The notes beneath the pieces were generated by a model. The model had not been told where the DNA came from. It did no database searches and worked only from the letters and a program-made list of their open reading frames with translations. A stretch of 64,000 bases of DNA from Pseudofulvimonas gallinarii. Its GTDB lineage: Bacteria; Pseudomonadota; Gammaproteobacteria; Xanthomonadales; UBA2363. The translations under genes were made by a program, and so were the position numbers. Position 1 is the stretch's first letter. Every line of letters starts with the position of its first letter. Shown in pieces: positions 831-38,695 of the stretch. Location: the NCBI RefSeq assembly GCF_004343305.1, contig NZ_SMAF01000002.1, positions 1-64,000 of the forward strand, given 5' to 3'.

Positions 831-3800
831 TTAGGCTTGTGCCACGCGCCGTTCTTCGAGGAGTTCCGCCACGGCCTTGAGCATGTCGGCCTCCTGGTAC
901 GGCTTGCCCAGGTAGCGGTTGACGCCGATCTCGAACGCGCGGGCGCGATGCTTCTCGCCCATGCGCGAGGTGATGACGATGATCGGCACGGACTTGAAGC
1001 GGTCGTCCGCGCGCATATAGCCGGCAAACTCGTAACCGTCCATGCGCGGCATCTCGAGGTCGAGCAGGATCACGTCCGGCACGCGCTCGTTGACCTGCTC
1101 CAGCGCGTCCATGCCGTCCTTCGCCGTCGCCACCTCGTAGCCTTCGCGCTCGAGCACGCGGGCGCTGACCTTTCGCATCGTGATCGAGTCGTCGACCACC
1201 ATGACGACCGGACGCTGGCGGACCACCGGCTGCGGCACGATCTGTACCGGCGCATCGCCCTTTTCGCGCAGTGCGGCGGCGCGACGGAGCAGCGCGGCGA
1301 CGTCGAGGATCACGACCACCGCACCGTCGCCGAGGATAGTCGCGCCAAACACGCCCGGAATGCGGGCCAGTTGCGGTCCGACCGGCTTCACGACGATTTC
1401 GCGACCGCCCAGCAGCGCATCGACGCGCAAGGCGACGCGCAGGTCACCGGCGCGGATCATCAACAGCGGGACCTGTGCCGTGTCGTCGGTGGCCCCGGCG
1501 GTCATGTTCAGGACGTTGTCGAGCTCGTAGATCTCGTAGTCCTCGCCCGCGTAATCCACCTTAGGACGGGGATCCTGTACCCGCTCCTTGTAGTTGGCAC
1601 CGGACAGACGGACGATGCCCTGGACGCCGGTCATCGGGATGGCGAAGGTGTGGTCGGTGACCTTCACCAGCACCGCCTGGCTCACCGCCAGCGTGTACGG
1701 CAGGCGGACCCGGAACAGCGCACCCTTGCCGACCGTCGATTCGATCGTCAGGCTGCCGCCGAGCTGCTTGATTTCACTGGCGACCACGTCCATGCCGACG
1801 CCGCGGCCGGCGTACTGGGTCAGCTCGCTGGCCGTGGAGAAACCGGCCTCGAGGATGAAGCCATAGAGGTCGCGATCGCTGAGGTCGGATTCGGCACTGA
1901 GCAGGCCACGCTCCACGGCGGTCTTGCGCACGCGCTGCGGATCGATGCCGCGACCGTCGTCGGAAACCTCGATCAGCACTTCGGTCGCCTCGCGGGCGAC
2001 GCGGATGCGGATCTGGCCTTCCTCGGCCTTGTTGCCGGCGCGACGCTGTTCCGGCGTCTCCAGGCCGTGGACCAGCGCGTTGCGCAGCATGTGCTCGAAC
2101 GGTGCGGCCATGCGCTCCAGCACGCCACGGTCGAGCTCGCCCTGTGCGCCGTCAACCTCCAGGCGCACGCGCTTGCCCAGCGCGTCGGCTTCCTGGCGCA
2201 CCAGGCGGCGCAGGCGCGGCAACAGGCTCTCGAAGGGCACCATTCGCGCCCGCATGAGGCCTTCCTGCAACTCGGCACCGGCGCGCGACTGCTGCAGGAG
2301 CAGCGATTCGGCCAGGCGCGTGTGTTCGTCGAGCAGGCCCTGGATCGACTGCAAGTCAGACATCGACTCGGCGAGGGCGCGTGACAGCTGCTGCAGCTGC
2401 GAGAAGCGGTCCAGCTCCAGCGGGTCGAATCCGCTGCTGCTGCTCTGCTCCTGGACGCGGACTTCACGCGAGAGGATCTGCGTTTCCGCCTCGATCTCCA
2501 GCTTTCGCAGCTGCTCGCGCAGACGCAGGACGGTCTGTTCGAATTCTTCCAGGCTGAAGCGGAAGGCGCCGACCTGCTGCTCGAGGCGGGTGCGGATGAT
2601 GCCTACCTCGCCGGCGAGGTTGACCAGGGAGTCGAGCTGGTCCGCGCGCACGCGCACGAATTCGGTGACCTGGGCTTCCGGGACAGCCGCTTCGGGCTTG
2701 GCTTCGGTATGGATGTTGATCTGCGCCGGCCGATGCCGAGTGATGTGCGGGGACAGGTCCACCACCGGTTCGGCAGGCGCCTTGGCAACGACCGGGGCTT
2801 CCTGCTCCACCTGTGGCGTGTCGATCGGCGCGGCGGCTTCTTCGGCCTGCGCCGGAGCGGCCTCCGCTTCGACTTCCATCGTGAAGCCCAGCATCGAAGG
2901 CTTCTCGACACCGGGGAAGATCAGGTAGTTGAGCTGGTCGAGGCAACGGCCCAGCAGCGCGATGTCGGCGTCGCCAAGCTGGCGCATGTCGTTGTTGGCC
3001 GACTCGAGCAGAGACTCCATCGCGTGGCCGAGTTCCCCGGCATCGGTGAAGCCGGCCATGCGCGCACCGCCCTTCAGCGTGTGCAGTTCGCGCGCCAGTT
3101 CCTGCGACAGGGCGGCGGCACCCATGCGTTCACGACCGGCCAGGTGCTGCTCGCAGCGATCGAGGATTTCGCGTGCTTCCTCGCGGAACAGTTCGGCCAG
3201 GTCCGGATCGACCTCGTTCAAGGCATGGACGTCGGCCATGACGGCCAGCATCGCGCGCAGCGCATTGCGATCGGCGCTGCCCGGCGCGATGTCGTTCTGC
3301 GCCGAATCGTCGGGAATCGCAGCAACGACCGTTGTCGCCGCAGGCGCCGGCGGCTCGACCGTGGCCGGTGCTTCCGGCTCGGCTCGCACCAGCGACGGGA
3401 TTTCCGCCGAATAGCTGCTGGCCGGAACCTCTTCCGGTGTCTCGGACACGACCAGCGGTTCCAGCTCCGGCACGTCTTCCAGGCCGCTGGGAACGCTTTC
3501 CGTTTCCGTTGCGGCGGTGTCGCCGTGGAACCATTCCTCGCCGGGCCGCAGTTCGCGCAGTTCGCCGGTCAGCTGCGCCAGGCGTTCACCCAGTTCACCG
3601 GCGGACGGAATCGCCGTGCCCCGCTCAAGGTGCTGCATGGCCGCGGCCAGCCAGCGGCTGGAGGCGGCAATGGCGTCGTGGCCGTCGGTGATCGGCGCGA
3701 TGCGCAGGCCACGCAGGCGGCTGACATAGCCTTCTAGCACGGAGGTCAGCTCGGTGACCTGCGGCAGGTCGACGGCACCGAAAGCGCCATTGAGGGTGTG

Positions 3801-6785
3801 CACCGCGCGCACGAGATGCTCCGGCACGATGGCCAGTGCACTGTTGCTGCGCGAGTCATGCAGATAGGTTTCAATGACGCCGAGGTGGCCGGCGACTTCA
3901 CTGCGGAGGATGTCGAGCAGCACCGGATCCAGCGGCGGGAACTCGCCGTCGTCCGCGGAACCCGCATCGGTCGCCTCACGCGCCGGCTCGATGGCGGCAT
4001 CGTCAATCGTGCCATCGATTGTTTCGAAAGCGGGCGGGACCGCCGTCGTCCCGTCGTCGTCGGCCGCATCAGCGACCGACCCGGCAAACGCGGGCGCCTG
4101 CGATGTAACGTCGCCGGAGAGGTCACCAGTCGAGTCAAGGGTCCACTCACCGGTTTCGATGGCCGGCAGCTCGTCACCCGCCAGTTCGCCGTCAGCGGCG
4201 GTCGCGAACGACAGCTCTTCGCCGGCTTCCTGCGCAGGGGTCTCGATGACGGTCTCCGGCACCGACCATTCGATGCCATCGGAAGCGGAATCCGCGGCCA
4301 CCGGCCCGCTGGCGGCTTCTTCGACGGCGTCCTGCGCGGGTGCAACGTCGACCGTCTCGGGCACGGCCGCTTCAACCTCGACCGGTGCCGCGACTTCGGG
4401 CGTCTCCACCGGCGCCGCCTCGGTCTCGACCGGCGACGCGACGGGCGTCGTGGCCACCGCTGCGGCGGCCGCCGCGGCGGAAAGCGGCGCGCCGCCGTCG
4501 GCCAGCAGTTCCGCATTGGCCATGATCAGCGCGATATTGCGGCGCGGCGTGATGTCGCCGCACAGCGCGGCGTGGAATTCCGGCAATGCCGCAGTGGCCT
4601 GCTCGACCACCTCGAGGATCGGCAGCGACGCGGGGCGATTGCCGTTGAGCACGCGGTTGAGCAGGTTCTCGATCAGCCAGGCGAACTCGCCAAGCAGGCG
4701 CGCACCGACCATGCGGCCGCTGCCCTTGATCGTGTGGTACGAGCGACGGATGGTGCGAAGCCGCTCGAGGTCTTCGATGTTGGCGCGCCAGAACGGCAGG
4801 TTCTGGTCGAGGCTGGCCATTTCCTCCGTCAGCTCGTCGAGGAAGGTACCGCGGATTTCCTCGTCCATGCCGGAGGCTTCGTCGAACGAGTAGCCGAGCG
4901 TCGCCACCATTTCGCTGAACCGCTGCAGCGTCGGATCGGCCGGTGCCGAACCGCTGTCGGCGGTCGCTGCCGGCGCCGTTGGTTCCTGTGCCGCCACTTC
5001 GGTGGGCTGGCTCGGCGTCTCCGGCCGCGCGGTCGCGACGGCATCGGCGGCCTTGGCCGTGAGGGCACCCTCGCCGTCGTCGTTGAACAGTTCGTGCAGG
5101 CTGATGCGCGACGGCCAATGGCCCAGGCGCGACAGGGCGTCCGTGACCGCCTGCAGGCGATCCTCGCCATGACCCTGGTGGTCGGCGACGAGTTCGAGGT
5201 AGTACTCCAGGCCGCTGAGCGCGTCGGCGAAGGCGTCGACTTCCTCGGCGGCCAGCGTTGCCGGATCCAGCTCGCCGTGCAGGTAACCGGCGATGGCCAG
5301 GATGCGGTCGGCGGCGGACGAGAACTCCAGCAGGCGCAGTGCGCCGGCGACATCGCGCAGCTGCACCACGGCGGCCTGCTTGTGCGTGCTGCCCGGCGGC
5401 GAAGTCAGGTGCGCGAGGAACAGTTCCTTGGACTGCTGCAGGTTGTTGGCGGCTTCACGCAGCACCGCCTGGACCAGCCGGCGACGCTCGCCGTCGCTGC
5501 CGGCAGCGGCGCCACCACCGCCTTGCGCACCCATCTGTTCGCGGTGCATCTGCAGCGAGCTTTCAACCTTGAGCAGGCCGCCAGCGATATCCAGCAGCAC
5601 CTGTTCGCTGGCTTCGCCACCGGCGGCGATCTGCGCCAGTGCGGCGCGTTGTGCCTGCACCTGGCTGCGCTCGATGCCCATGCCGACCATGCCGAGCGTG
5701 TCGGCGACGCGGTCGAGGACTTCCAGCTCCGGCTGCAACGAATCGCCATCGCTTCGGCTGCCACGCAGGTAGAGGTCAAGCGCGTCCTTGACCCGCATCA
5801 GCTCTTCTTCGAGCGCACCGACGACGCTGCCCAGCAGGCTGCTGTTGCGGCCGGACATCGCGCCGCGTGCATCATCGACTTCCTGTTCGCTCGGTACCAG
5901 GTCGGTGAGGCCGAACACTTCCTGCACGCGGCCGATACGGTCGCCGGCGCCGGCCTGGGCGGCGTAATACAGCAGGTTGCGCAGCAGTTCGCTGGGCGGA
6001 TTCTGGCCGTAGAGCACCTCGCCCTGGTCAATCAGGCGCTTGATCTCGCGATCCAGGCGACCGTACAGCAGCTTCGTCGAAATGCTGGCATCGAGCCCGT
6101 GCGCACGCATGGCGTCGCAGATGGCCCCGGCGACCCACCACAACTGGCGCGCCTGGCGCACCGAGATCACCTCGAGCAGGCGGTCGCAGATGCCGGTCAG
6201 CTTGCCCAGCGCGGCGTGGTTGTCCTGGCCGCGGAACCACTGCAGCAGCGCGAACTGCCAGTCACGGCGCAACGCGGTGAGCTGCTTCTCCAGCTCCGAA
6301 CCGGACACGCGCGCTTCCGGCCGCGGCAGGTCGGAAGGCAGCTCCGGATCGGTCGCCGGAATAAGCAGCACGCTCTCGCTGAGGAGCTTCTCGCCGCGGC
6401 AGGAGCGCAGGTCGTTGAGCAGCGGCAGCAGTACGATCGGAATGTCGCGGTAACCGCTCTGCAGGCGATCCAGGTAGTCCGGGAGCTGCAGGATGGCGCG
6501 CAGCAGGCTGGTCAACGCGTCCTCGACGCGCTGCACCTTGCCCTCGGTCAGGTCGGTGACCAGCCGCTCCATCTCCTCGGCGACCAGGGCGGCGCCGTAG
6601 AGCTCCAGCATGCGCAGGCCACCGAGCACTTCGTGCAGGGCCGCCAGCGCGACGCCGGCACCATCGCCGCTGAAGTTCTCCTCGGCATAGCGCTCCAGGG
6701 CCTCACCGGCACGGGTCAGGCTGGCGTCAATTTCCGGCTTGAGCCAAGCCAGGCTGGTCTGGTCGATTCCGCTGTCTGGACGCAT
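831..6785 (-). CDS. chpA: Hybrid chemotaxis histidine kinase ChpA/PilL
   Basis: A 1984-residue CheA-type hybrid kinase controlling type IV pilus twitching. From the N-terminus: a long FimL/Hpt-like region; a clear Hpt domain with HTIKGSGR near residue 685; a second Hpt-like segment, HTLNGAFG, near 996 with an altered motif; a third Hpt, HTLKGGAR, near 1235; then dimerisation, HATPase (N-box LRNALVHGLETPEQR near 1571) and CheW domains; and a C-terminal receiver starting VMVVDDSITMRK near 1860, with phospho-Asp in VILLDLEMPRMDGYE. Long Ala/Pro/Glu-rich linkers separate the Hpt domains. GTG at 6788 is directly followed by ATG at 6785; the ATG is used here. It lies 24 bp after pilJ. Phosphate should pass to PilG and PilH. 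Confidence 0.95.
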   Translation of the reverse strand: MRPDSGIDQTSLAWLKPEIDASLTRAGEALERYAEENFSGDGAGVALAALHEVLGGLRMLELYGAALVAEEMERLVTDLTEGKVQRVEDALTSLLRAILQLPDYLDRLQSGYRDIPIVLLPLLNDLRSCRGEKLLSESVLLIPATDPELPSDLPRPEARVSGSELEKQLTALRRDWQFALLQWFRGQDNHAALGKLTGICDRLLEVISVRQARQLWWVAGAICDAMRAHGLDASISTKLLYGRLDREIKRLIDQGEVLYGQNPPSELLRNLLYYAAQAGAGDRIGRVQEVFGLTDLVPSEQEVDDARGAMSGRNSSLLGSVVGALEEELMRVKDALDLYLRGSRSDGDSLQPELEVLDRVADTLGMVGMGIERSQVQAQRAALAQIAAGGEASEQVLLDIAGGLLKVESSLQMHREQMGAQGGGGAAAGSDGERRRLVQAVLREAANNLQQSKELFLAHLTSPPGSTHKQAAVVQLRDVAGALRLLEFSSAADRILAIAGYLHGELDPATLAAEEVDAFADALSGLEYYLELVADHQGHGEDRLQAVTDALSRLGHWPSRISLHELFNDDGEGALTAKAADAVATARPETPSQPTEVAAQEPTAPAATADSGSAPADPTLQRFSEMVATLGYSFDEASGMDEEIRGTFLDELTEEMASLDQNLPFWRANIEDLERLRTIRRSYHTIKGSGRMVGARLLGEFAWLIENLLNRVLNGNRPASLPILEVVEQATAALPEFHAALCGDITPRRNIALIMANAELLADGGAPLSAAAAAAAVATTPVASPVETEAAPVETPEVAAPVEVEAAVPETVDVAPAQDAVEEAASGPVAADSASDGIEWSVPETVIETPAQEAGEELSFATAADGELAGDELPAIETGEWTLDSTGDLSGDVTSQAPAFAGSVADAADDDGTTAVPPAFETIDGTIDDAAIEPAREATDAGSADDGEFPPLDPVLLDILRSEVAGHLGVIETYLHDSRSNSALAIVPEHLVRAVHTLNGAFGAVDLPQVTELTSVLEGYVSRLRGLRIAPITDGHDAIAASSRWLAAAMQHLERGTAIPSAGELGERLAQLTGELRELRPGEEWFHGDTAATETESVPSGLEDVPELEPLVVSETPEEVPASSYSAEIPSLVRAEPEAPATVEPPAPAATTVVAAIPDDSAQNDIAPGSADRNALRAMLAVMADVHALNEVDPDLAELFREEAREILDRCEQHLAGRERMGAAALSQELARELHTLKGGARMAGFTDAGELGHAMESLLESANNDMRQLGDADIALLGRCLDQLNYLIFPGVEKPSMLGFTMEVEAEAAPAQAEEAAAPIDTPQVEQEAPVVAKAPAEPVVDLSPHITRHRPAQINIHTEAKPEAAVPEAQVTEFVRVRADQLDSLVNLAGEVGIIRTRLEQQVGAFRFSLEEFEQTVLRLREQLRKLEIEAETQILSREVRVQEQSSSSGFDPLELDRFSQLQQLSRALAESMSDLQSIQGLLDEHTRLAESLLLQQSRAGAELQEGLMRARMVPFESLLPRLRRLVRQEADALGKRVRLEVDGAQGELDRGVLERMAAPFEHMLRNALVHGLETPEQRRAGNKAEEGQIRIRVAREATEVLIEVSDDGRGIDPQRVRKTAVERGLLSAESDLSDRDLYGFILEAGFSTASELTQYAGRGVGMDVVASEIKQLGGSLTIESTVGKGALFRVRLPYTLAVSQAVLVKVTDHTFAIPMTGVQGIVRLSGANYKERVQDPRPKVDYAGEDYEIYELDNVLNMTAGATDDTAQVPLLMIRAGDLRVALRVDALLGGREIVVKPVGPQLARIPGVFGATILGDGAVVVILDVAALLRRAAALREKGDAPVQIVPQPVVRQRPVVMVVDDSITMRKVSARVLEREGYEVATAKDGMDALEQVNERVPDVILLDLEMPRMDGYEFAGYMRADDRFKSVPIIVITSRMGEKHRARAFEIGVNRYLGKPYQEADMLKAVAELLEERRVAQA

Positions 6786-35765: not shown

Positions 35766-35874
35766 GTCGTGAGAACCGGCTGAAAACACGCAGCCTGCCA
35801 GTGCTGCGGTGCGGCATCAAGTACGCGCTTCTGGCATAGTGTCCGCCCCCGCTCCACTGCCGCCTGCACCCGTC

Positions 35875-37110
35875 ATGGCAACGACCTCGTTTCCCAAGTC
35901 CGATATCCGCGTCCTGCTGCTGGAAGGCGTCAGCGCCAATGCGGTCGAGACCTTCCGGGCCGCCGGCTACGAATCGATCGACTACCACACCAAGTCACTG
36001 CCCGACGACGAGCTCAAGCAGCGCATCGCCGAGGCGCACATCATCGGCATCCGCTCGCGCACCCAGCTCAGCGCCGACGTGCTCGCGCATGCACGCCGCC
36101 TGATCGCGATCGGCTGCTTCTGCATCGGCACCAACCAGGTGGACCTGGCCGCCGCGCAGGCGGCCGGCATCCCGGTGTTCAACGCGCCCTACTCCAACAC
36201 GCGCAGCGTCGCCGAGCTGGTGCTGGCCGAAGCCATCATGCTGATGCGCCGCATCCCGGAGAAGAACGCGCAATGCCACCGCGGCGGCTGGTCGAAGTCG
36301 GCCGCCGGCAGTTTCGAAGTGCGCGACAAGGTGCTCGGCGTGGTCGGTTACGGCCACATCGGCACACAGATCGGCCTGCTTGCCGAAGCGGTTGGCATGC
36401 GCGTGATCTTCCATGACGTGATCACCAAGCTGGCGCTCGGCAACGCGCGTCCCAGCGACGGCCTGGACGACCTGCTGGAGCGTGCTGACATCGTCACGCT
36501 GCACGTCCCGGAAACGCCGCAGACGCGCGACCTGATCGGCGCCGAACAACTCGCGCGCATGCGCAAGGGCTCAGTCCTGATCAATGCCTCGCGCGGCACG
36601 GTGGTGGATATCGACGCGCTCGCCGAGGCACTGCGCAGCGGCCACCTCGCCGGCGCCGCCATCGATGTGTTCCCGGTCGAACCGCAGGGCAACGACGATC
36701 CCTTCGTCTCGCCGCTGGCCGGCATGGACAACGTCATCCTGACACCGCATGTCGGTGGCAGCACCCTGGAAGCCCAGGACAACATCGGCCGCGAAGTCGC
36801 CGCCAAGCTGGTGCGCTACAGCGACAACGGCTCGACGCTGTCGGCGGTCAACTTCCCCGAGGTCAACCTGCCGGAACATCCGTCCAGCCGCCGCCTGCTG
36901 CACATCCACCGCAACCAGCCGGGCATCCTCTCGCAGATCAACGACGTGTTCTCAAAGGCCGGCGTCAACATCGACGGCCAGTACCTGCAGACCAATCCGA
37001 CCATCGGCTACGTCGTGGTCGATGTCTCGGCCACCCGCGAGCAGGCGGACCAGCTCAAGGTCGCGCTGGCGGCGATCCCCGGCACCCTGCGCTGTCGCGC
37101 GTTGTACTGA
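35875..37110 (+). CDS. serA: D-3-phosphoglycerate dehydrogenase
   Basis: 411 residues, the E. coli-type enzyme: LLEGVSANAVETFRAAGYESIDYHTKSL, IGIRSRTQL, NAPYSNTRSVAELVLAEAIMLMRRIPEKN, Rossmann fold VLGVVGYGHIGTQIGLLAE, VLINASRGTVVDIDALAEAL, catalytic His in TPHVGGSTLEAQDNIG, and a C-terminal ACT domain (about 338-411, LLHIHRNQPGILSQINDVFSKAGVNI) for serine feedback. It starts serine synthesis; this type can also reduce 2-oxoglutarate. ATG 35875 gives the usual length. Divergent from the flavoprotein gene. Confidence 0.96.
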   Translation: MATTSFPKSDIRVLLLEGVSANAVETFRAAGYESIDYHTKSLPDDELKQRIAEAHIIGIRSRTQLSADVLAHARRLIAIGCFCIGTNQVDLAAAQAAGIPVFNAPYSNTRSVAELVLAEAIMLMRRIPEKNAQCHRGGWSKSAAGSFEVRDKVLGVVGYGHIGTQIGLLAEAVGMRVIFHDVITKLALGNARPSDGLDDLLERADIVTLHVPETPQTRDLIGAEQLARMRKGSVLINASRGTVVDIDALAEALRSGHLAGAAIDVFPVEPQGNDDPFVSPLAGMDNVILTPHVGGSTLEAQDNIGREVAAKLVRYSDNGSTLSAVNFPEVNLPEHPSSRRLLHIHRNQPGILSQINDVFSKAGVNIDGQYLQTNPTIGYVVVDVSATREQADQLKVALAAIPGTLRCRALY

Positions 37111-37492
37111 GCTAACCGCCCATCGCATGCACACCGCGCCATCCAGGCGCGGCGCGGCACCTTCTCCGGAGCTCGGGCATCCGGACCTTGAAATGGAAAT
37201 CCGGGCTGGTCGCTGATCATAACGATGACCACCAGTGGTCCGGCCCGCGAGCCGGACGGCGCAGCCCTTTGCCGCCAATCCTGCGGATCAGGATGCGGTG
37301 CAAAGTCAACCAACCCAATGATTCCTTTCACATTCGCCAGCCACCGGCGTGAAGGGGCTGAGTCTGTCATGCCCGCGCCGTCGCCGTGATAACGCATAAC
37401 ACTGCACGCTTGCCGGATAATCCAGGCGGCGTGCGGCAAGGCCGCGCGGCCAGCATCGTCGACGGGTATTGATTCCCTTGGGGATTTTGCGA
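37111..37492. other. Non-coding region between serA and the cassette cluster
   Basis: No gene recognised; no integrase reading frame or remnant on either strand. A 7-bp hairpin at 37238-37257 (GTCCGGC / GCCGGAC, loop CCGCGA) may be a weak serA terminator. GTCATGCCCGCG at 37366-37377 equals the first 12 bases of the REP at 38771 but the rest of the REP is missing. Base composition falls towards AT near 37470-37500. Confidence 0.5.
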
Positions 37493-37521
37493 TTGACGCC
37501 TCCTGCCGAAGCCACTACAAC
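37493..37521 (+). promoter_or_regulatory. Pc-like promoter driving the cassette cluster
   Basis: TTGACG (37493-37498), 17 bp, TACAAC (37516-37521): four or five matches in each hexamer and the ideal spacing. It points into the first cassette gene and ends 33 bp before the GTTAGGC core site, the geometry of an integron cassette promoter. Confidence 0.6.
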
Positions 37522-37561
37522 AGGCGCTACACCCCGTTTCGGGGTCGAACATTAGTTAGGC
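37522..37561 (+). other. attI-like insertion site with core GTTAGGC
   Basis: GTTAGGC at 37555-37561 fits the integron core consensus GTTRRRY and marks the left border of cassette 1 (cut between G and TT). Unlike the two sites downstream, there is no matching RYYYAAC arm upstream, so it looks like an attI site or a degraded attC. A small perfect hairpin ACCCCG-TTT-CGGGGT lies at 37531-37545. Confidence 0.45.
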
Positions 37562-37569
37562 GGCAGACC

Positions 37570-37836
37570 GTGTCTGAGACGTCGTGCCCAGTATGTGAGT
37601 CCGCCCTCGGTTTTGAGCCTTGGCCAGACGGCATCTCTTCGCACGAGATCTGTCCTTCCTGTGGAATTCACTTTGGGTACAACGACGCAAGGCCGGATCT
37701 GCGCCAGGCGGTCTATGCTGAGTGGCGGAATCAGTGGCATGCCTCTGGGCGTCGTCCGATCACGGGCGCTGAATGGCAACGCATCGCTACGCTGGTGATG
37801 CAGCGCGTCTTGGCAAAGGCCGAGGCAAATTCATGA
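37570..37836 (+). CDS. Cassette gene: small zinc-ribbon protein
   Basis: 88 residues from a GTG 9 bp inside the cassette border. CPVC (residues 6-9) and CPSC (about 28-31) form a CxxC...CxxC zinc ribbon; then HFGYNDARPDLRQAVYAEWRNQWHASGRRP. The layout F-x-P-W-x-DG...E-ICPSCG-x-x-FGY recalls the small Cys-rich CPCC-type proteins often seen as lone hypothetical genes in mobile DNA. No Shine-Dalgarno sequence is obvious, as for many cassette genes. It is less GC-rich than the flanking housekeeping genes, which supports foreign origin. The function is unknown. Confidence 0.75.
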   Translation: MSETSCPVCESALGFEPWPDGISSHEICPSCGIHFGYNDARPDLRQAVYAEWRNQWHASGRRPITGAEWQRIATLVMQRVLAKAEANS

Positions 37837-37857
37837 CGCACGATCTAGGGCATTGCC

Positions 37858-37945
37858 GCCTAACACCTCGTTCGAGCGGACGCGGGGACGATAAAGTGCC
37901 AAGCCCATACACCGGCGTGCGCGCCGCTCAACTCAACCGTTGGGC
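37858..37945 (+). other. attC recombination site 1 (88 bp)
   Basis: Outer arms GCCTAAC (37858-37864) and GTTGGGC (37939-37945) pair with one mismatch. Inner arms are TCGTTCGAGCGGACGC after the first core and GCGCGCCGCTCAACTC before the second, which pair except for one extra C in the left arm, the expected extrahelical base. Length and plan match integron attC sites, notably the TTCGAGCGGACG style of chromosomal arrays. Confidence 0.85.
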
Positions 37946-38059
37946 TTCTCTATCAACTGGTCGCAAATTGGGGCTCGGTCGCCGATTGGGTATCTGGCAT
38001 CGGCTCACTATCGGCGGCGTCGATAGCCGGAGCTGTCTCCCAGCAAGTAGCGCGGCATG
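37946..38059 (+). other. Geneless cassette interior between attC 1 and attC 2
   Basis: About 114 bp with no start signal or credible reading frame. As a cassette unit (37940-38155, 216 bp) it carries attC 2 as its recombination site. It may be a decayed cassette, a spacer, a promoter cassette or an RNA cassette; nothing specific was recognised. Confidence 0.5.
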
Positions 38060-38161
38060 CGCTAACCAATCAGTCAAGCGGTTTGGGGCCGCACCCTGCA
38101 TGTTCCCGATCTTGTAACATACCGGGCGCGGCCCGAATGCCGCTTGACTGCGGCGTTAGGT
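38060..38161 (+). other. attC recombination site 2 (102 bp)
   Basis: Arms CGCTAAC (38060-38066) and GTTAGGT (38155-38161). The inner arms AGTCAAGCGG and CCGCTTGACT are perfect reverse complements. The plan is the same as attC 1, with a longer loop containing GC-rich pairing segments. Confidence 0.85.
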
Positions 38162-38179
38162 GCCAGGAGGCACCGCCCC

Positions 38180-38695
38180 ATGATCGTGGAGAAAAGCAAG
38201 ATCGTGCTCAAGGCCCACTGGTTTCTTCCGGTCGCCATGCTGGTGGTCGGAGGTGATCTCGTCCTGGCGCTGGCCGACTCGTGGTCGGATCCGGCGCTGC
38301 TTGAGGCCGGCCTGCTCTTTGATCTGGCAATCGTGCTGCCCGCACTCTACTGGTGGTGCTACAGGAAACGTGGCCGCGCTGCGCTTCTCAAGGCGGCTGC
38401 CCTGAGCTGCCTCGGCATCTGGGTCGCCGGTCATATCGTCCCGGACCAGCACCACGAGCTCATCAGCACGGTTGGCTTCGCTCGGTACGTCGGACTCGCC
38501 GTCCTGCTGGTCATCGAGCTCAAACTGGTCGTGGCCATTTATCGGGCAGCATTCTCAAGCAGCGGCGCCAACCCTCCCCTTTCGGCAGCCCAGGACGCCG
38601 GCATGCCTGAGTGGGCTGCTCGACTAATGGCTTGGGAGGCATCGCTGTTGCGTCGCGGCTGGGAGTTGGTGCGTCGGCTGGTAAGGCTTCGCTAG
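38180..38695 (+). CDS. Cassette-associated integral membrane protein
   Basis: 171 residues from ATG 38180, with CAGGAGG 9 nt upstream and the attC 2 border only 18 bp away, so it reads as the gene of a third cassette. Four hydrophobic segments are seen (WFLPVAMLVVGGDLVLAL, LFDLAIVLPALYWWCY, AAALSCLGIWVAGHIV, YVGLAVLLVIELKLVVAIY) and a basic C-terminal tail rich in Arg and Trp. No family recognised. No attC follows the stop, so the right end of this cassette is either lost or was replaced by the repeat region. Confidence 0.7.
   Translation: MIVEKSKIVLKAHWFLPVAMLVVGGDLVLALADSWSDPALLEAGLLFDLAIVLPALYWWCYRKRGRAALLKAAALSCLGIWVAGHIVPDQHHELISTVGFARYVGLAVLLVIELKLVVAIYRAAFSSSGANPPLSAAQDAGMPEWAARLMAWEASLLRRGWELVRRLVRLR

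Follow-up and report, generated by a model that had tools for sequence, protein, structure and literature searches.

The window analysed here is a stretch of 64,000 nucleotides from Pseudofulvimonas gallinarii (contig NZ_SMAF01000002.1, positions 1 to 64,000). On its forward strand, an array of gene cassettes lies beside the chromosomal gene serA (phosphoglycerate dehydrogenase; 35809-37110, +), which was identified with 659 bits, over the cut-off, by the NF008759 equivalog model; a search of two congeners gave no close serA match. The first cassette (37556-37939, +) runs from crossover to crossover, from the box of an attI to that of attC1 (37858-37945, +), and contains an ORF (37570-37836, +) for a protein of 88 aa whose N terminus is zinc-ribbon-like and whose Pfam matches were all below cut-off. 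The second cassette (37940-38155, +; 216 bp) extends from the attC1 box to the box of attC2 (38060-38161, +) and is without a convincing gene. It is followed by an ORF for a 171-aa membrane-like protein (38180-38695, +), for which there was no match in Pfam or NCBIfam. A first-pass annotation of this DNA had described these three units as a cassette cluster; all three are present, but no attC was found 3' of the last gene, nor within the flanking sequence examined of four of its homologues, and it may be either a last cassette without attC or a chromosomal gene. Further 3' of the array, between 38722 and 38969, the motif GTGGCAGGGACATTTCGCG is repeated with 93% identity over 29 bp.

The attC sites were searched for over 154 kb with R2, a covariance model based on 38 attC from other genomes and none from that of the window. 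As the first-pass annotation had proposed from its own reading, both sites scored as attC, at the positions and in the shared direction that it had given (attC1, 52.1 bits, E 4.5e-10; attC2, 23.9 bits, E 0.0034), and the array thus classes as an integron cassette array, a type defined by attC whose R and L arms are paired and which have extrahelical bases. R2 gave no further attC on the window's forward strand. The outer arm of attC2 pairs weakly, but its bottom-strand fold is far better than that of shuffles (z -6.8). For attC1 the fold energy was no better than that of shuffles (z 0.3), and the call leans on the arms and the extrahelical base, not on fold energy. A search of Rfam gave no match to an attC family; RF03014 was discarded as an attC model, as it is a model of Transposase-1.

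In other Xanthomonadales, a common module of about 95 bp is found 5' of integrase genes, composed, in this order, of a TAGGA-like upstream block, TTGAC, a -10 element, a CCCC-loop-GGGG hairpin and GTTAGGC. The same module (upstream block, Pc-like promoter, hairpin and crossover box) heads the array in the window at 37470-37561 (+), where it scored 57.2 bits with R1, a model based on sequence only, five of whose 30 member sequences come from the window's genome. A leave-out HMM, a 95-bp profile of attI from 28 other genomes without that of the window, gave a single match in the window (37479-37561, E 2.8e-10). The segment therefore matches intI-linked attI from elsewhere in the order and, like these, ends in G^TTRRRY; its G^TTAGGC (37555-37561, +) occupies the final conserved positions of the family. 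This motif had earlier been taken for a third attC core, and it is indeed present, 296 bp before attC1, and conserved, but as the attI crossover. The promoter proposed in the first-pass annotation (TTGACG-17-TACAAC; 37493-37521, +) is real, corresponds to the Pc-like promoter of the module and is conserved in other copies of it. The locus is thus a secondary integron platform, in which two cassettes are preceded by a promoter and an attI but no intI.

The genome to which the window belongs (3.45 Mb, 57 contigs) has a single integron integrase, which a genome-wide search placed on contig C7; it is full-length and free of stops (TIGR02249, 468 bits against a curated cut-off of 265) and has its own adjoining attI. 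In the window no intI match was found, either between 36000 and 39700 or in the whole-genome search, and intI adjoining attI, as in a complete integron, occurs on C7 instead. The absence of an integrase, stated in the first-pass annotation, is correct only locally, given this C7 integrase with its attI and three further copies of the attI module, which altogether occurs at five loci (C2, the window; C6; C7; C19; C31). Of the four remote copies, three stand at the head of cassettes, those on C6 and C19 with attC behind the attI. The copy on C31 looks dead: its core is mutated to GTAAGC, and an ORF that reads as transposase- or insertion-sequence-like follows directly. Remnants of intI are present on C6 (up to 27 residues) and C31 (up to 40); the window and C19 copies gave no significant intI match. 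At the contig ends of C6, C7 and C19 there is also a repeat of about 105 bp, following attC-like starts (CTAACAAT..; L030 11394-11501, L006 1-105, L032 11615-11721), which possibly is an insertion sequence that targets attC; no matching plasmid record was found for it.

On comparing the five copies, it was found that blocks of high identity alternate with diverged stretches. Block A (37386-37422, +), which in the C7 copy overlaps the intI start region, has a mean identity of 91.6% and is kept in the window despite the absence of intI there; similar sequence is also kept at remote platforms of genome G387 and its relatives. The upstream attI block is 85.7% identical and the block of -10, hairpin and core 88.2%, whereas the stretches in between reach 52.7% (the 44 bp after block A) and 62.8% (the promoter spacer, behind an invariant -35). 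Such a pattern suggests that attI and promoter are under constraint in most of the copies.

The distribution of the module was studied by running R1 (E <= 0.001) and TIGR02249 over the same 398 genomes of the order. An attI match was found in 142 of these, with up to seven per genome; such counts are rough, as R1 misses divergent attI (G001, listed with one, has two more) and split assemblies may lead to double counting (two contigs of G258 end in similar attI). Both attI and intI were present in 117 genomes, 80 of which had more attI than intI, and 70 genomes combined at least two attI with exactly one intI. The remaining 25 had attI and no intI at E <= 1e-50, and hence some platforms are probably orphaned. 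Where enough downstream sequence was available, by our own count about 35 of about 40 remote attI had attC of the same orientation behind them, at most about 1.2 kb away. The arrangement is also seen in long contigs: in genome G213, one contig of 2.5 Mb carries a single intI together with five attI, and behind each of these attI lie at least six attC; G387 (a single contig of 4.2 Mb) has three attI and one intI. Six attI each were found in Pseudoxanthomonas sacheonensis and Rhodanobacter sp. C05, and the complete chromosome of Arenimonas daejeonensis has two, about 1.08 Mb apart, the second with eight attC behind it. The chromosomal neighbours vary from platform to platform, serA being found in the window and secD-secF in X. 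codiaei, where an attI (39 bits) lies about 520 bp 3' of secF and is followed by three attC, and where the intI-linked attI lies behind ilvD (the genes are those which, from their sequences, we take to be secD, secF and ilvD). Genome G066 has seven attI matches (L171, L172) and no integrase at E <= 1e-50, and apparently carries platforms without an integrase of its own. In P. sacheonensis C8 (L183), two attI stand in tandem about 0.9 kb apart (near 4006-4076 and at 3073-3147, both minus) with one attC between them (3539-3598, minus).

The reading that we prefer, with a probability of roughly 0.8, is that of a distributed integron, in which the platform in the window is served in trans by the single IntI of the genome, as are the other chromosomal attI. 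Since five attI accompany one integrase here and the same arrangement is common in relatives, one integrase probably feeds several arrays. IntI encoded on C7 would bind the window attI in trans and would insert circular cassettes at its G^TTAGGC, as at its own attI, and the first cassette at each platform would be transcribed from the local promoter. That IntI itself acts on the window copy, and that the promoter there is active, we infer from sequence; it is the comparison between genomes that points to functional recombination in trans at the window attI. A point against this reading is that the C6, C7, C19 and C31 copies all lie near contig ends.

The alternative that survives best, though we consider it unlikely, is that remote attI are decaying leftovers of duplications of the whole integron, or of one integron that moved, with intI deleted and the cassettes frozen. 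In keeping with this, several copies retain only the attI-proximal end of intI, in varied lengths (up to about 40 aa in the window's genome, about 60-137 aa in G213 and G267), and one copy, that on C31, looks dead. Frozen cassettes are difficult to reconcile with what is found at orthologous remote attI of different species, which were identified in three sets (G384/G372/G301/G394, G387/G114/G375 and G387/G201). Here the flanks are 83-94% and the attI end 82-96% identical, and past the crossover, where comparable sequence suffices, identity falls to the level of unrelated DNA, so that related species bear wholly different cassettes at the same platform. Between G387 and G114, a right-hand stretch of 640 bp is again similar (92%), after 4.2 and 2.4 kb, respectively. 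In the G384/G372/G301/G394 set the attI stands out, because the intergenic DNA before it is down to 60-75%. The conserved blocks amid a diverged background in the window's genome and the presence of whole cassettes common to separate arrays also argue against mere leftovers. At the level of sequence, these comparisons show that in relatives cassettes turn over at attI without intI in cis. As G387 and G213 each have a single integron integrase, IntI is the natural candidate for the agent of this turnover.

The leftover explanation may nevertheless be correct on how the copies arose. In G213, the four extra copies match the canonical copy at 97-98% identity across attI together with about 292-472 bp of the sequence upstream, and each retains a different length of the intI start; they were either truncated from birth or homogenised afterwards. 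Excision of an intI-attI piece by IntI finds no support as the source of these copies, as their four left boundaries are not at GTT.

Slightly less probable still is the view that homologous recombination or gene conversion among repeats, rather than IntI in trans, underlies both the sharing of cassettes and the similarity of the attI. The near identity of the G213 copies close to attI is as expected from homogenisation, and the arrays also hold transposase-bearing repeats; repeats of 1.3 and 1.8 kb between G213 arrays, with ORFs that read as transposase-like, were left out of the cassette count. The intI-linked array of G213 has one whole cassette in common with each of three remote arrays (98.4, 99.3 and 100% identity), and two remote arrays have another in common (100%). 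Both ends of these shared cassettes lie exactly at attC crossovers, and between species the replacement of cassettes begins at the attI crossover, neither of which favours recombination among repeats as the general cause, even if some of the shared cassettes could partly derive from it. That the window holds a plain CALIN, formed by insertion at a chance attG-like site (a process known from work cited in PMC12444791) or left by rearrangement, with GTTAGGC as part of another attC, is very improbable despite the lack of a local intI, since the attI profile matches out of sample, no attC fits at the position of GTTAGGC and the identical type of module occurs at five loci.

A CALIN is defined as a cluster of attC without a neighbouring integrase (IntegronFinder, PMC9024848). 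With two attC and no intI nearby, the cluster in the window qualifies, and the first-pass annotation was right to apply the label in its strict sense; its alternative, the remains of a chromosomal integron, fits poorly, because in related species the cassettes at comparable secondary platforms continue to change. The label hides the attI, since the definition is silent on attI whereas this cluster is headed by one that bears a promoter, and according to IntegronFinder 2.0 (PMC9024848) attI other than those of class 1 have been poorly described and are not detected by the program. A survey of Xanthomonas in 2025 reported CALINs in about half of the genomes, at loci that are conserved (among them lamG/secF and recD), with intI at ilvD (PMC12444791). 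These are likewise remote clusters at fixed chromosomal places; the passages of the survey consulted here name no attI there, whereas one was found here in X. codiaei. In mobile integrons, cassettes of the delta-attI type also have attI away from intI, as a partial attI fused into excisable cassettes (PMC12901181), but these lie in one array and the platforms described here at separate loci. Compared with the sedentary chromosomal integron of the Xanthomonadales (e.g. that 3' of ilvD in Xanthomonas), the attI and attC families are the same, and the TIGR02249 family of the integrase and the direction of the array are also alike; the difference is that intI is not in cis to the window array and that one intI would serve several attI. 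In the open-licence literature no published description was found of multiple attI per genome or of such a distributed integron; CALINs at conserved loci are already on record, as in the passages cited (PMC12444791).

It seems somewhat more plausible than the contrary, and is held with clearly less confidence than the reading of the window itself, that the Xanthomonadales integron is commonly distributed by selection, with several loci of promoter and attI all stocked by one trans-acting integrase. Several cassettes would then be in the expressed first position at once, and many CALINs of the Xanthomonadales would be working platforms. In the usual picture, a single attI adjoins a single integrase. 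Were one enzyme to stock several attI that each bear a promoter, the position, expression and exchange of cassettes would follow other rules, and clusters now classed as CALIN might be live; distributed platforms also offer an explanation for CALINs at conserved loci. An attI profile is now available for a large bacterial order, in which current software seeks none. Finally, the remote attI of G001 (L127, L209, L208) were found to be 83-87% identical to the intI-linked attI of G002 (L213), above their identity to that of G001 itself, which suggests that the intI-attI of G001 was replaced.
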